DNA of 64,000 nt from a virus, in the IMG/VR virus record IMGVR_UViG_3300046457_000143, positions 1-64,000 of that record; one strand, 5' to 3'. A program made the position numbers and the translations under genes. Of this stretch, positions 983 through 58,653 are shown in pieces (the stretch's first letter is position 1; each line of letters begins with the position of its first letter). The notes below the pieces were generated by a model. It ran no database searches and was not told the origin of the DNA. It was given only the letters and a program-made list of their open reading frames with translations.

Positions 983-3955
983 ATGAGTTATCGAAATTCG
1001 CTGGACTGTGAGGGTGGCGCTGCGCCCCTTGTCGACAAGATGCTGGGTACCGCCTTTGGGGTGGTGAACAGTGTTGCCCAGAAACTTCCGGTCATCACGT
1101 ACCTGCAGGAGAACATCGACCGGCTGGTGACGGACGTACATACGTCACGGGATGCTGCAGCAGCGTCTGCGGTGACATCGACCCAGGAGGCACAGGCCTC
1201 TGCCGGCAGTGCCGCTGCCTCGCATGATTCGCAGGTTGCGGCAGCCGTTTCCCAGGACGCGTCTCACGCCTCGGAAGTGGCCGCTGGCACCTCGGCAGCA
1301 GCAGCGCACGCCAGTGAGCTGGCCGCAGCAGCAAGTGCAGCCGCTGCAGGCGAATCGTCCGATGCAAGTGCGGCTTCAGCTGCTGCCTCGCAGGCAGCGT
1401 TCAATACCGTGGCCAACGGCACGTCTCCCGACGCCGGTGCACTGTCAGGTACTGACAAGTTGCCACTCAGCCGGGGAGCAGGACTGCTGGGTACCTCGCT
1501 CACGAAGATCGCACAGTGGGTGACCCAGACGTATCAGGGCTTCACACAGAGCGGAACGGGCGCAGTCGCACGAACGGTGCCGGATCGGCTGCGTGATTCC
1601 GTTTCGCTGCGGGATTTTGGTGCAGTGGGTGGTGCAGGTCTGGTGGATGACACGACAGCGCTGAACGTGGCCATTGCCGTAATCCAGGCGATGGCTGCGG
1701 CCCAGAACTCGACCTACCCGCTGCCAGCCATTGATATTCCAGGCGGGCGCTACAAACTCACCGGCACGATCAATACCTACCCATGGGTCAAGTTCCGGGC
1801 GGTCGGCAGTGTGGTGTTCGACTTCAGCACACTGGATCCGTCGATGAACGGGATTGTCTGCCGCAATGAGCAGACTGTTATCCCGGAAGGCCTGATGAAG
1901 TGGGGCACGAATAGTCCTTTCCTCGATGGTTCGGGCGGCTCGATCATGATTCAGGGACCGGGCAAGGTAGCCTCGCAGGGCTGGGCAATCGTGACGGGTA
2001 ATACGACACTCGCCTCTGGTCCGGTACGGGATACAGGCGGTTGCAACGTCATCGTGACTGGCTGGCGTGGGGCACTGCGCATCGACCCGATTAACTGCTA
2101 TCTGCAGAAGTGGAAGTCGTGCCGGTTCGAACAGAACCGGGAAGATTGTGTCTATGTGTCGCCGGCCAGCGGTAACCAGACCAACAGCGGCGAGCGCATG
2201 CTGTTCGAGGATGTCGTGTTCTCTGGCGCGAACAATGCTGTCTACCACAACTGTGATGGCTTCGATTACCAGTTTGTGTCGTGCTCTTTTGACTACAACG
2301 GTACGCCGATCAAGTTCGGCCCGAACGGTCGCTACTCGACGGTACGCCTGATCGGCGGGCATACCGAAGCGTTTGATGGCCTGTTCATCGACGCAACGGC
2401 CTCCGGCCAGTACGTTGCCGCCGTGCTGGCAGGGCATGACGTTCTGGCCACGCCCTGGACATCGGGCCTGCCGTGCTCACCCAGCCGCACGCTGATTGAT
2501 GGCAACCCGGCCAATCCGCTGCGCCTGTCGGTCGACGGGCTGACCATGCCATTCCTCGTGCGGCCGTATGTGCCGGACTCGGCCATTGTTGGCGATGGTG
2601 TGGATATCTACTCCTGCGGCGGCGTCATCTTTCAGTCGTTCTATGCACCGTTCTCCCGTACCAAATCGCTCGGGCGTGACTACGACTTTTCACTCGATGC
2701 AGTTGGGACACTGGCCACCGCCATGACGGCGTGGTTTGTCGACACGACTGCTTTCATCCAGGTCAGCGTGCCGGTTGCTGATGTGCAGGCTGCGCCGGGG
2801 ATGGCGGCAGGCATGCAGGCATTGCACCTTAACGGCACGGATGCGGTGAATTCGCAGATCACGATCGGCACCAAGGCGCTGTCTCCGTGTTCTCCGGGTG
2901 AACCGCTCTATCCGGGGTGTGACTTCTACGGCGGTGCGGCAACGGGTGTGCTGAACGTGCGCCCGTTCCTGCGCTTCTACGATGCGGCAGGCAATCTGCT
3001 GTCCGATAGCAATACGTGGTTCACCTATTCGATGTCTGCGGCTTATGCAGATGCGGCGGTGCCAACGCATGGCTCGCAGGCACAGTGGTTTCCGACCAAC
3101 TACACCGTTGCGTTTGCTCCGAAGAAGGCTGCATTTTTCCGTACCTATGTGAAGGTAAGTGCCTTTTCCGGGGACATTTACCTGCGCAACGTGCGGGCCG
3201 CATTCACGTCAAACCGGTCTGCTGCTGCAGGTACGCCGGCCTTTACCGCTGCTGCCGGATCAATTCCATTTGCAAGTGGCGCCGGCATGCTGCTCTCGGA
3301 CAACACCAATTTCGTCTGGGATGCCACGAACAAGCGTCTTGGGGTGGGTACGAAGAGTCCGGCTGCCCCGCTCAATACGCTGGTGGTAGGGGCGGGTGCG
3401 ACAACTACGGCAACACGCGTGGAGAACTACAGCAACACTGCTGGTACAGGTGTTGCCAGCGAGGAAAATGCGTCAGCGACCTACGGTGCAGTGGGTTACC
3501 GGCGCATTACCTACTCTCCCACTGGTTCGGCAGTCAACCGCCACAAGATCCAGCTCAATGATGGCACAGGTCTGAAGACTGTTCTCGACATGCGGTCGGA
3601 TGGTGTGAACGGTCTGATGGTCGGTGCGGACGGGCCTAACACGAGCACGCTGCAGTCGGCAGGCTCGCTTGCCACGGTACTGCCGCTGTACAAGCTGAAT
3701 GCGACCTACGCACTGGGGCCGAATGACTATTGCGTGCTGGGAGATGGCGCAACCATTTTCCAGCTGCCTGCTATCGCCACCTGCCCTGGCCGGATTTACG
3801 CCATCAAGAATGTCGGTACGGGCACATCCACCATCACGCCTAACGGCGCTGAGACTATCGATGGGACGGCTGGCAATCTCGTCATCTCGGTGAAAAACTC
3901 GGCCGTGATGGTTCAGGCTGCAGCAACAGGCTGGCAAATCATCGGAAAGGTCTGA
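983..3955 (+). CDS. Tail fibre/appendage protein with pectate-lyase-like beta-helix
   Basis: A 990-residue receptor-binding protein, starting 1 base after the previous stop. Residues 1-50 (LGTAFGVVNSVAQKLPVITYLQENI) resemble the virion-attachment segment at the start of N4 gp66-like appendages. Residues 55-140 are an Ala/Ser-rich heptad stretch (SAAASHDSQVAAAVS type) expected to form a trimeric coiled coil. From about residue 210 the motif DFGAVGG...DDTTAL marks the start of a pectate-lyase-type right-handed beta-helix, the fold of many capsule- or LPS-degrading spikes. The C-terminal 90 residues (GDGATIFQLPAI, then TPNGAETIDG) match a small beta domain that ends many phage fibres. Whether it cleaves polysaccharide or only binds cannot be told from sequence. 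Confidence 0.8.
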   Translation: MSYRNSLDCEGGAAPLVDKMLGTAFGVVNSVAQKLPVITYLQENIDRLVTDVHTSRDAAAASAVTSTQEAQASAGSAAASHDSQVAAAVSQDASHASEVAAGTSAAAAHASELAAAASAAAAGESSDASAASAAASQAAFNTVANGTSPDAGALSGTDKLPLSRGAGLLGTSLTKIAQWVTQTYQGFTQSGTGAVARTVPDRLRDSVSLRDFGAVGGAGLVDDTTALNVAIAVIQAMAAAQNSTYPLPAIDIPGGRYKLTGTINTYPWVKFRAVGSVVFDFSTLDPSMNGIVCRNEQTVIPEGLMKWGTNSPFLDGSGGSIMIQGPGKVASQGWAIVTGNTTLASGPVRDTGGCNVIVTGWRGALRIDPINCYLQKWKSCRFEQNREDCVYVSPASGNQTNSGERMLFEDVVFSGANNAVYHNCDGFDYQFVSCSFDYNGTPIKFGPNGRYSTVRLIGGHTEAFDGLFIDATASGQYVAAVLAGHDVLATPWTSGLPCSPSRTLIDGNPANPLRLSVDGLTMPFLVRPYVPDSAIVGDGVDIYSCGGVIFQSFYAPFSRTKSLGRDYDFSLDAVGTLATAMTAWFVDTTAFIQVSVPVADVQAAPGMAAGMQALHLNGTDAVNSQITIGTKALSPCSPGEPLYPGCDFYGGAATGVLNVRPFLRFYDAAGNLLSDSNTWFTYSMSAAYADAAVPTHGSQAQWFPTNYTVAFAPKKAAFFRTYVKVSAFSGDIYLRNVRAAFTSNRSAAAGTPAFTAAAGSIPFASGAGMLLSDNTNFVWDATNKRLGVGTKSPAAPLNTLVVGAGATTTATRVENYSNTAGTGVASEENASATYGAVGYRRITYSPTGSAVNRHKIQLNDGTGLKTVLDMRSDGVNGLMVGADGPNTSTLQSAGSLATVLPLYKLNATYALGPNDYCVLGDGATIFQLPAIATCPGRIYAIKNVGTGTSTITPNGAETIDGTAGNLVISVKNSAVMVQAAATGWQIIGKV

Positions 3956-3961
3956 TCATGG

Positions 3962-3981
3962 GGCTGCCTTCGGGCAGCCTT
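3962..3981 (+). terminator. UUCG-loop hairpin after the fibre gene
   Basis: A 7-bp perfect stem, GGCTGCC/GGCAGCC, closed by a TTCG tetraloop, 7 bases after the fibre stop. Only two T residues follow, so it may trim or stabilise the mRNA 3' end more than terminate. Confidence 0.5.
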
Positions 3982-4001
3982 CCTGAACCAGGAAAAAGAA
4001 C

Positions 4002-4331
4002 ATGACAATACTTTTCAAGCGCGGACAGACCTTTGACTTCGCGGGGCAGCTCACGAGCAAGGGCGTGCCGTATCCGCTCGCCGGCTGCACGCTGTATGCG
4101 GATATACGGACCCAGGCGAATTTCGCCTTCGTCCAGCATATGACGTGCACGATCCTGGACCTGACGACTTCGCTGGTCCAGATCTATGCGTCGGACGCGG
4201 ACTCAGCGAAGTGGCGGGCCATGCCACACCTGCTCGATGTCCGGCTGGTCAACGCGGCAGGCAAGGTGCTGATCTCCAACACCGTGGAGATTGACGTACT
4301 CGACACTGTGACGGAGGCCAATACAGCATGA
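4002..4331 (+). CDS. Small beta-rich tail/fibre accessory protein
   Basis: A 109-residue protein (MTILFKRGQTFDFAGQL...) with alternating beta pattern and no membrane segment. The opening, a 'rGqTf-df-gqLt-kGvpypLaGctlyadir' layout, resembles the N-terminal domain of baseplate/fibre adaptor proteins of the BppU kind, which attach receptor-binding modules to a tail. The start is preceded by the leader TGAACCAGGAAAAAGAAC, a form repeated before several genes here. The stop overlaps the next start by 4 bases (ATGA), implying coupled translation with the large fibre protein downstream. Function is inferred from fold pattern and neighbours only. Confidence 0.5.
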   Translation: MTILFKRGQTFDFAGQLTSKGVPYPLAGCTLYADIRTQANFAFVQHMTCTILDLTTSLVQIYASDADSAKWRAMPHLLDVRLVNAAGKVLISNTVEIDVLDTVTEANTA

Positions 4332-24906: not shown

Positions 24907-24910
24907 ATAC

Positions 24911-24928
24911 TTCAAACTTATCTCTAAT
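24911..24928 (-). promoter_or_regulatory. Antisense copy of the leftward phage promoter motif
   Basis: TTCAAACTTATCTCTAAT on the plus strand differs at two positions from the copy at 43485, which precedes minus-strand genes. In the same direction it would fire leftward from just upstream of vRNAP into the late block. A reading as a plus-strand promoter is possible (TCTAAT as a -10, 14 bases before the start), but the right-arm copies argue for leftward. Confidence 0.45.
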
Positions 24929-43459: not shown

Positions 43460-43485
43460 GGGGAGCACCGCGTTGGCTGCTCCCC
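43460..43485 (-). terminator. Attenuator-like hairpin in the leader
   Basis: On the minus strand GGGGAGCA pairs with TGCTCCCC (8 bp perfect) over 10 bases, followed by TTCTTTCCCTTT. It lies between the promoter motif and the first gene. A terminator this early would act as attenuator or 5' processing hairpin. Confidence 0.55.
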
Positions 43486-43502
43486 TCAAACTTATATCTA
43501 AT
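43485..43502 (-). promoter_or_regulatory. Leftward phage promoter motif, copy 1
   Basis: Plus-strand text CTCAAACTTATATCTAAT; read leftward as ATTAGATATAAGTTTGAG. It sits about 50 bases upstream of the gene starting at 43434 and just downstream of the DNA polymerase stop. Four further copies lie in other gaps in the same orientation. Confidence 0.6.
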
Positions 43503-53911: not shown

Positions 53912-53937
53912 GGTGGGTTTCTCCTTTGAGTAGCTAC

Positions 53938-53955
53938 CTCAAAGAAATATCTAAT
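53938..53955 (-). promoter_or_regulatory. Leftward phage promoter motif, copy 2
   Basis: Plus-strand text CTCAAAGAAATATCTAAT, just after the leftward terminator at 53964 and 27 bases before the start at 53911. The order terminator, promoter, gene fixes its direction as leftward. Confidence 0.6.
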
Positions 53956-57209: not shown

Positions 57210-57665
57210 TCAGGCCGCTACTGCGTCCTGTGCAACTTCGATCGGCATGTGGTAGATCGGGCAATTGCCGTCCTTTTCCTCGCCGTACCAGCACAACAGG
57301 TGTTGGCCCGCCTGGTTGCGCTTCCACATCTTGCCGGGGTACACACCGGAAGGGATCGACGTGTCGTAGCTCGATAGCTTCTTGAAGTCCTGCGGATCGA
57401 GCAGTGCCTTGCCGTCACGGATGAAAATCATCTGACGGTCAGGCTGCGACCAGTGTTTGCCGAGCGGATCGGTCATCTCGGGGATGATGTCGACACCGTT
57501 CATCGGCTTGGCCGTACCGTCGATCGCTTCCTTGCGCTTGACATCGGCACGCACGTTGCGAATGTGTTGCAGCAGGCTTTCCTCGCTGAACGGATGGCCT
57601 TCGATGGTGTGGTGGTTGCCCAGCCACGTCTCAATCTGGTCCAGCAGTTTGTCGTTCGTCTTCAC
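57210..57665 (-). CDS. Unknown protein downstream of the structured RNA
   Basis: A 151-residue protein. I take the GTG at 57665 (VKTNDKLLDQIETWLGNH), which follows ACGGGAGAAATCA; the in-frame GTG at 57713 would place a terminator hairpin inside the coding region. Helical N-terminus (EESLLQHIRNVRADVKRKEAI) and a beta-rich second half (QMIFIRDGKALL, QHLLCWYGEEKDGNCPIYHMP). The protein is not recognised. Confidence 0.55.
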   Translation of the reverse strand: MKTNDKLLDQIETWLGNHHTIEGHPFSEESLLQHIRNVRADVKRKEAIDGTAKPMNGVDIIPEMTDPLGKHWSQPDRQMIFIRDGKALLDPQDFKKLSSYDTSIPSGVYPGKMWKRNQAGQHLLCWYGEEKDGNCPIYHMPIEVAQDAVAA

Positions 57666-57687
57666 TGATTTCTCCCGTTTACCAATA

Positions 57688-57720
57688 GAAAAGGGGCGAG
57701 AATCTTTCGACACTCACCCC
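57688..57720 (-). terminator. Intrinsic terminator closing the structured RNA
   Basis: Read leftward, GGGGTGAG pairs with CTCGCCCC (8 bp, one wobble) over 12 bases, followed by TTTTC. It lies 9 bases after the closing stem of the RNA and 23 bases before the next start. Confidence 0.75.
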
Positions 57721-57880
57721 TGATGAATCATCTTGGAGCACTCTGACAACCGGGCCGAATCCCATTTGTTCCGCGTTGACAGTGGACCACGCTCACGCAA
57801 TGCCCTGCGTAAGACTCTTAGGTGGCCTTGCCTCCAGCGGCGTCAGCCAGAGTGCTCGAAGATGACAACCTTGCTTGCTC
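57688..57880 (-). ncRNA. Candidate structured RNA, about 190 nt
   Basis: A 318-base gap between genes contains promoter motif, structured segment and terminator. The segment 57729-57864 is closed by a long stem read leftward: CATCTT/AAGATG, one C-C mismatch, GAGCACTCT/AGAGTGCTC, a GGC bulge, TGAC/GTCA. Inside are a hairpin CTTACGCA/TGCGTGAG (loop GGGCAT) and a smaller GCC/GGC hairpin, so a multi-branch junction is likely. No reading frame with a ribosome site is present. It is not a tRNA (no T-arm, no acceptor), nor a hammerhead ribozyme. The class is not known to me. Confidence 0.6.
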
Positions 57881-57898
57881 CTCAAAGTTATATCTAAT
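57881..57898 (-). promoter_or_regulatory. Leftward phage promoter motif, copy 4
   Basis: Plus-strand text CTCAAAGTTATATCTAAT, directly downstream (leftward) of the terminator at 57910 and directly upstream of the structured RNA. Terminator-promoter-RNA order fixes the direction. Confidence 0.6.
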
Positions 57899-57909
57899 AT
57901 ACGATCAAT

Positions 57910-57931
57910 AAAAAGCCCCTGTCAAGGGACT
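57910..57931 (-). terminator. Intrinsic terminator after the zinc-ribbon gene
   Basis: Read leftward, AGTCCC pairs with GGGGCT (6 bp, one wobble) over TTGACA, followed by TTTTTATT. It ends the dCTP-deaminase/zinc-ribbon transcript before the next promoter. Confidence 0.7.
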
Positions 57932-57983: not shown

Positions 57984-58187
57984 TCAGTCGTCCACTTCTG
58001 CTGTGGCCTTCGCCCGGTATCTGACGAATGCGTACTTGAACTGCCGGTCCATGTTGTCCCGGCAGGGGCCGCACCACCAGCGGTACTCCGTATCGAGCAG
58101 GGACCAGGCGTTATCGCACCCGCAGCTGCTACACCGAGGCAATAGCTGAGACGGGCTCGTCTCGCTGGTTTTGGTACTTTCCGTCAT
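57984..58187 (-). CDS. Small zinc-ribbon protein
   Basis: A 67-residue protein from MTESTKTSETSP. Two CxxC knuckles, RCSSCGCDN and WWCGPC, are spaced as in zinc ribbons. The start has AAGGAG ten bases upstream even though it lies inside the dCTP deaminase gene, with a 59-base overlap in another frame. It may bind nucleic acid or act as an adaptor. Confidence 0.55.
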   Translation of the reverse strand: MTESTKTSETSPSQLLPRCSSCGCDNAWSLLDTEYRWWCGPCRDNMDRQFKYAFVRYRAKATAEVDD

Positions 58188-58653
58188 ACCGTTGATGCTC
58201 CTTCGTCTGGTGAAACACGACCTGAGCGATCGCGGCGCCCTGCGGAATGACCAGGCCACCGCTGCCGTGGTAGACGAGTTCGAGTGTCAGGAATCCCTTC
58301 CACCCTGGCTCGATCACGGTATTGAATACGCTCAGGCCTTGCCGTGCCCAGGTGGACTTGTCGTGCACGATGCCGATCATGTCGGTCGGCATGTCGAACT
58401 CTTCGATGGCCGAGGCGATGATGAACTGACCGTGCGAGCGGCGGTAAGCGGTCACCTTCCCTTCCTGGTTCCGCTCGGTCGAGATCACGTACCGCTCGCT
58501 CCAGCTCTTCTGCACGAACTGGATCTCCTGCTTGATACGGATGTCGTATCCCGCTTCACCCAGGCCACGGCTGACGCCATGCTCGTGCACCTTGTAGCCG
58601 ATCATGTCCTTGATCGGCTGCCTGAGAACCAGTCCTACTCCGTTTATCACCAT
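58129..58653 (-). CDS. dcd: dCTP deaminase family protein
   Basis: A 174-residue enzyme. Family landmarks are EAGYDIRI (residues 33-40), DKSTWARQGLSV, and EPGWKGFLTLELVYHG with the catalytic Glu, then IPQGAAIAQVVF and YDGKYQNQ. It deaminates dCTP to dUTP, feeding dUMP to ThyX. The dUTPase branch of this superfamily is less likely because the segment is the longer LTLEL type. The product supports thymidylate synthesis during phage replication. Confidence 0.75.
   Translation of the reverse strand: MVINGVGLVLRQPIKDMIGYKVHEHGVSRGLGEAGYDIRIKQEIQFVQKSWSERYVISTERNQEGKVTAYRRSHGQFIIASAIEEFDMPTDMIGIVHDKSTWARQGLSVFNTVIEPGWKGFLTLELVYHGSGGLVIPQGAAIAQVVFHQTKEHQRYDGKYQNQRDEPVSAIASV

Follow-up and report, generated by a model that had tools for sequence, protein, structure and literature searches.

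An RNA module downstream of the dCTP deaminase gene in an N4-type phage

The window, that is, the whole stretch of DNA analysed here, comprises 64 kb (64,000 nucleotides) of a 77,934-base IMG/VR record. The phage is N4-type, with a 3,834-aa virion RNA polymerase gene (phrog_2206) and genes for DNA polymerase, primase, portal, rIIA/rIIB, dCTP deaminase and thymidylate synthase. Its DNA polymerase is nearest to those of Achromobacter and Burkholderia N4-like phages, with 62-65% identity. On the minus strand, between the dCTP deaminase gene and a phrog_24427 gene, we found a structured RNA, and a small zinc-ribbon-like ORF lies after dCTP deaminase and before this RNA. Through searches with the neighbouring proteins, three N4-like contigs (L002, L004 and L005) were found to carry an RNA in the equivalent position downstream of dCTP deaminase; the sequences of their outer stems are quite different, and they fold with z-scores of -4.8 to -9.4. 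The features of the locus are as follows (all on the minus strand; n=8 denotes the eight carrier sequences described below).

58129..58653, minus: dCTP deaminase gene, a locus marker in N4-like phages, upstream of the RNA (phrog_1663, E 1.9e-53)
57896..57925, minus: sigma70-like promoter TTGACA-18-TATATT, first hexamer at 57925 (11/12 consensus matches)
57880..57898, minus: repeated promoter-like motif ATTAGATATAANTTTGAGG (4 sites in the window; copies in L004 and L005)
57727..57866, minus: structured RNA module with a three-way junction (fold z -5.7; covariance model 129-131 bits; covariation)
57842..57866, minus: outer stem P1, 5' strand, pairing with 57727-57750 (pair probabilities mostly about 1)
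57841..57845, minus: junction strand UGACG, in the family UG[A/C]CG (U, G, C and G invariant, n=8)
57771..57840, minus: P2/P3 arm, with a variable apical hairpin at 57815-57791 in the window (fold and alignment)
57764..57770, minus: conserved single strand AACAAAU (alignment; AACAA invariant, n=8)
57752..57763, minus: P4 hairpin GGG-AUUCGG-CCC, in the family SGG-RUUCGN-CCS (GG, UUCG and CC invariant)
57727..57750, minus: outer stem P1, 3' strand (pair probabilities and covariation)
57688..57721, minus: intrinsic terminator, hairpin 57721-57692 and U-run to 57688 (pair probability about 1)
57210..57674, minus: gene after the terminator, phrog_24427, of unknown function (domains vary among relatives)

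A first-pass annotation of the sequence had described a promoter-structured RNA-terminator unit at this place, and our analysis confirmed it overall. The predicted transcript from 57889 to 57688 begins with a hairpin at its 5' end, followed by the RNA module and the terminator, and folds at -90.1 kcal/mol. The module segment by itself folded at -87.6 kcal/mol, compared with -63.6 +/- 4.2 kcal/mol for 200 shuffles, none of which was as good (z -5.70); with the covariation reported below, this rejects the reading of the module as a chance hairpin. P1 is closed by pairs of 57864-57859 with 57729-57734 and of 57857-57846 with 57736-57747, separated by a C-C mismatch (57858/57735); U57845 is bulged, and 57844-57842 then pair with 57748-57750. 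The closing stem of 19 bp with one mismatch and one bulge noted at first was thus essentially correct, except that the minimum-energy fold has a bulge of 1 nt and not of 3 bases. The internal hairpin CTTACGCA/TGCGTGAG (57813-57791) is likewise present but specific to the window, since its place is taken by two other hairpins in L002 and L005. No ORF of at least 40 aa was found inside the module on the minus strand. We also rejected a coding-sequence reading because no ORF is conserved: a possible 16-codon TTG frame in the window is absent from L002, L004 and L005.

Promoter-like elements, terminator and downstream gene

The TTGACA hexamer of the sigma70-like promoter is kept at the equivalent position in L002, L004 and L005, and its -10 region in the window is overlapped by ATTAGATATAANTTTGAGG. 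The results of the motif search showed four ATTAGATATAANTTTGAGG sites in the window with at most two mismatches (24910-24928, 43484-43502, 53937-53955 and 57880-57898), all on the minus strand and leftward, where none is expected by chance. The other sites are located in gaps near rIIA and DNA polymerase, and a weaker one lies near the virion RNA polymerase gene. Near-identical copies precede the RNA unit in L004 and L005, and a weaker copy (5 mismatches) does so in L002. The leftward promoter motif first proposed at 57881-57898 was therefore borne out more strongly than originally claimed. It has been reported that an AT-rich stretch from -7 to +2 suffices for N4 RNAPII, the polymerase of the middle genes (PMC4496689). 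Because this polymerase requires just such a stretch, ATTAGATATAANTTTGAGG is probably a promoter of the phage middle RNA polymerase. The ATTAGATATAANTTTGAGG site at 43502 is directly followed by a GGGGAGCA/TGCTCCCC hairpin whose tail is rich in T, and the one at 24928 by a terminator-like hairpin.

The intrinsic terminator, also noticed at first pass, recurs in L002, L004 and L005 with compensating changes in its stem. According to the pair probabilities, P1 and the terminator each form with a probability of about 1, share no bases and do not compete. The gene that follows is less constant: the L002 version is without the N-terminal part and the L004 version without the C-terminal part of the window's protein, so that no domain is common to all four N4-like carriers. 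This variation indicates that it is the RNA that has been preserved rather than the gene. Between promoter and RNA, L004 (5018-5153) and L005 (1721-1852) share a small related ORF of about 45 aa; the window and L002 are without it and retain the leader alone.

Carriers in other phages and scope of the searches

We built a covariance model, R1, from the four N4-like sequences and a second, R2, from six sequences. With R1, the module was recognized in L156 (50.4 bits), a metagenomic relative of Stenotrophomonas phage vB_Sm_QDWS359, where it lies between two tRNA genes on a contig with a permuted tmRNA as well, and in vB_Sm_QDWS359 itself (L371; 60.3 bits). The latter match was not selected by motif; it surfaced when the L156 region, tRNAs included, was used as a BLAST query. 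In QDWS359, a permuted tmRNA gene has the module as its intervening segment (3442-3551 of L371), placed after the CCA, which ends at 3441, and before the 5' acceptor strand, which begins at 3552; the module stem pairs 3442-3451 with 3539-3548. Using R2, we found the module just after the tRNA cluster of Stenotrophomonas phages vB_SmaS_DLP_5 (60.4 bits) and DLP_3 (57.0 bits). Altogether, eight carrier sequences from three phage groups were obtained, with R2 scores of 57-137 bits, and every carrier identified is a phage. The module has no fixed place in the gene map and occurs as its own unit (window, L002, L004 and L005), after tRNAs, between tRNAs, or as a tmRNA intervening segment.

The terminases of L156 and QDWS359 are 87% identical, yet the module sits in different places in the two, and it is absent from the other QDWS359 relatives examined. 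By comparison of these genomes, this pattern is one of patchy gain, loss or movement. Whole-record searches with R1 and R2 gave no convincing match in at least 40 other N4-like or dCTP-deaminase-bearing records. These absences, with those among the near QDWS359 relatives, show that the module is dispensable.

As a control, 63 bacterial contigs containing the exact bare motif scored at most 23 bits. Among the 174 looser motif matches listed, an outer stem of at least 14 pairs at the right place was found in known members alone, although the known member L005 has a longest outer-stem run of 13 pairs, under this 14-pair limit. Contigs that matched by motif only, 63 of them genomic and more than 200 viral, were rejected, since these matches look like chance and lie mostly in genes. 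R2 gave no match in 369 Gammaproteobacteria and four further proteobacterial genomes, a search run without a positive control and, for the larger set, with strict filters; the plasmids searched gave no match either. The module probably extends beyond these eight sequences, because the motif seeds catch close variants only and the viral matches are those listed.

Covariation and the conserved core

The eight sequences were aligned with fitting to the structure. The results showed that 33 of the 38 pairs changed on both sides with pairing kept (n=8), so the compensatory changes that the first-pass annotation had proposed looking for are present. The share of paired cells was 91.8%; in shuffles it was 62.4%, and sliding the partners gave no more than 40.5%. 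The covariation score was 0.87 versus 0.27. Despite the few, structure-fitted sequences, the effect size and the slid control leave little doubt that the covariation is real. The number of independent events is limited by the few sequences (eight, with DLP_5 and DLP_3 close to each other).

Conservation is concentrated in the junction and core, with 85% identity, versus 37% in P1, of which 93% of the cells are nonetheless paired. The letters UG-CG, AACAA and GG-UUCG-CC are invariant in all eight, and in the window the first P4 pair is swapped from C-G to G-C. After one gap was shifted by hand in four rows, the variable letter of UG[A/C]CG was seen to covary with the position of U57764, A occurring with U (window and L002) and C with G (the other six). 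This suggests that the A/C position forms one extra pair, and the change may be a single evolutionary event. A long P1, UG[A/C]CG, AACAA and the GG-RUUCGN-CC junction are shared by the eight sequences. Taken together, these results indicate that the module is almost certainly a real conserved RNA family.

Comparison with known RNAs

Scanning the whole window with Rfam 15 at the gathering threshold gave no matches, and the best match of the module segment at E<=10 was SNORD23, with 15.2 bits against a threshold of 64. The Rfam search proposed at first pass therefore assigned no family, and 6S-like RNA or another known class was rejected. Neither tRNA nor tmRNA was detected in the window by ARAGORN or Rfam, the permuted tmRNA model (RF04321) included. 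Literature searches retrieved no report of the module RNA. To our knowledge, few structured RNAs of phages have been described, and the best known among those located in arrays of tRNA genes, namely RNAs C and D of T4 and GOLLD, are without an agreed role.

The stable RNAs C and D of T4 (rnaC and rnaD), about 120-140 nt in length, are like the module small phage RNAs adjacent to tRNAs and of unknown function. They differ in showing no homology to it: R2 with filters off scored at most 6.7 bits over T4 70500-73500, and identity with them was rejected. GOLLD (RF02032) is also an orphan structured RNA beside phage tRNAs, for example in Xanthomonas phage XacN1, but it is about 400 nt or more, and the module did not match its 416-position model, whereas the positive control from XacN1 scored 227 bits. 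This GOLLD RNA lies at 3816-4229 of the XacN1 record (L383), beside a permuted tmRNA and tRNAs. A further comparison is with the intervening segment of permuted tmRNAs; such segments can house other RNA genes, and in QDWS359 the module is exactly such a segment, but those of the other phage tmRNAs examined are unrelated to it in sequence and the window itself is without tmRNA or tRNA.

We class the module as a new family among the orphan structured RNAs of phages, distinct by its three genetic hosts. The first-pass inference of a dedicated phage small RNA of unknown class is upheld in part: a structured phage RNA outside Rfam finds strong support in the compensatory changes and the spread over three phage groups, and its status as a discrete transcript is suggested by the promoter, the terminator and the surroundings. 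The roles put forward at first pass, namely interference with host RNA polymerase or the ribosome, an sRNA sponge or anti-defence, are guesses. The settings among tRNA genes and within a permuted tmRNA gene were not visible from the window alone.

The outer stem as a possible holder

Stenotrophomonas phage Summit (L415) is 76% identical to DLP_5 over the module stretch. It keeps the outer stem of DLP_5 and DLP_3 with compensating changes, and this stem encloses a degenerate tRNA-like sequence at 1581-1649 (30.1 bits); the region 1558-1690 appears as if the cargo had been swapped within one stem. Stem-closed segments of unrelated sequence were also found in other phage permuted tmRNAs, and a tRNA-Ala inside the intervening segment of a permuted tmRNA has been reported (PMC11915505). 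From these three observations, the outer stem resembles a general-purpose holder and the junction its cargo.

Several further RNAs were observed in these phages. The tRNAs of DLP_5 (L417) are interspersed with and followed by two other multi-branch RNAs with long stems (about 1202-1335 and 1467-1556), which occur in DLP_3 and Summit as well. The second contains GGTTAAAGCGAGGATCAACCTCGG, resembling AAACAAAGCGGATTCGACCG of the module; the two may be paralogues or other orphan RNAs. Directly before the QDWS359 tmRNA, long-stem segments at 3141-3262 and 3263-3382 of L371 gave weak model matches (23.2 and 11.2 bits) and are perhaps other stem-enclosed cargo. Permuted tmRNA genes (RF04321) were identified in QDWS359 (L371 3349-3766), Rb1, DLP_6, XacN1, Mendera, X1 and PHB04 (L381-L386); they are not annotated as such in these records, and that of QDWS359 has a CDS, UQM93886.1, annotated over part of the tmRNA on the opposite strand.

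Proposed mode of action and alternatives

We consider it somewhat more probable than its opposite that the module is released as a discrete RNA acting in trans. In N4-like phages, the free RNA would be made via its own promoter and terminator, and in the siphoviruses the processing of tRNA and tmRNA precursors would cut it free on both sides. P1 would serve stability or processing and carry no sequence information, whereas the conserved junction would be the surface that does the work, most likely by binding a protein that belongs to the host or is common to its phages. Such a protein would probably belong to translation, RNA processing or a defence system. Our leading guess for the target, suggested by the company of tRNA and tmRNA genes, is translation or tRNA-directed defence. 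A trans-acting, protein-binding RNA is favoured because a conserved junction in a freely varying frame marks a binding or active site. A gene leader, an RNase substrate or a ribozyme is less well supported.

Among these, a processing or insulating element acting in cis is unlikely. It would be a long duplex, a substrate of RNase III or tRNA processing, that separates or protects neighbouring stable RNAs, the core aiding cleavage. The module adjoins tRNAs and sits in the excised segment of a permuted tmRNA, Summit holds a degenerate tRNA in the module's place, and the inserts of other permuted tmRNAs are stem-closed too, but the N4-like module has its own terminator and no stable RNA neighbour, and it is the junction that is conserved, not the stem that RNases would use. 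Quite improbable, in our estimation, is a leader of the downstream gene, such as a riboswitch, an attenuator or an antitermination RNA acting on the following terminator. The HK022 put RNA acts in cis on elongating polymerase. Like the module, put and other promoter-proximal phage RNAs are structured RNAs directly after a phage promoter and before a terminator, and all four N4-like phages show the order promoter, structured RNA, terminator, ribosome site and gene. Unlike put, the module also occurs far from such an arrangement, and the modules in tRNA and tmRNA contexts have no such downstream gene. Moreover, the domains of that gene differ between carriers, with no conserved tie to one regulated gene or pathway, and by folding alone, which may miss a ligand-dependent switch, no mutually exclusive structures of P1 and terminator were seen.

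We regard mimicry of a tRNA or tmRNA element as improbable in a still higher degree. It would have the RNA bind SmpB or a tRNA enzyme, as the hairpin GGAUUCGAC resembles the conserved GGNUUCGAC block of tmRNA; a 9-base string is presumably common to this hairpin and the E. coli block, which we treat as a lead only. The tmRNA of L371 itself reads CAGGUUUCGACGGG and the module travels with tRNAs and tmRNA, but the base after UUCG varies (A, G or U), and ARAGORN and Rfam detected no tRNA-like fold in the window. A self-cleaving or otherwise catalytic RNA would fit a small conserved junction core with free peripheral stems in processing contexts; with no match to a ribozyme family among the Rfam models and no conserved cleavage-site pattern recognised, we give it scarcely any chance.

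Returning to the trans-acting RNA, we tentatively propose, at somewhat less than even probability, a mobile class of phage RNA that moves between unrelated phages and genetic hosts, perhaps trades places with tRNAs within one and the same outer stem, and would act in trans through its junction on the translation, RNA-processing or defence machinery of the host. The small conserved core, the cultured carriers (DLP_5, DLP_3 and QDWS359), the clear covariation model and the differing contexts make deletion and pull-down tests straightforward. These results also show that a segment excised from a permuted tmRNA can contain a conserved RNA of its own.
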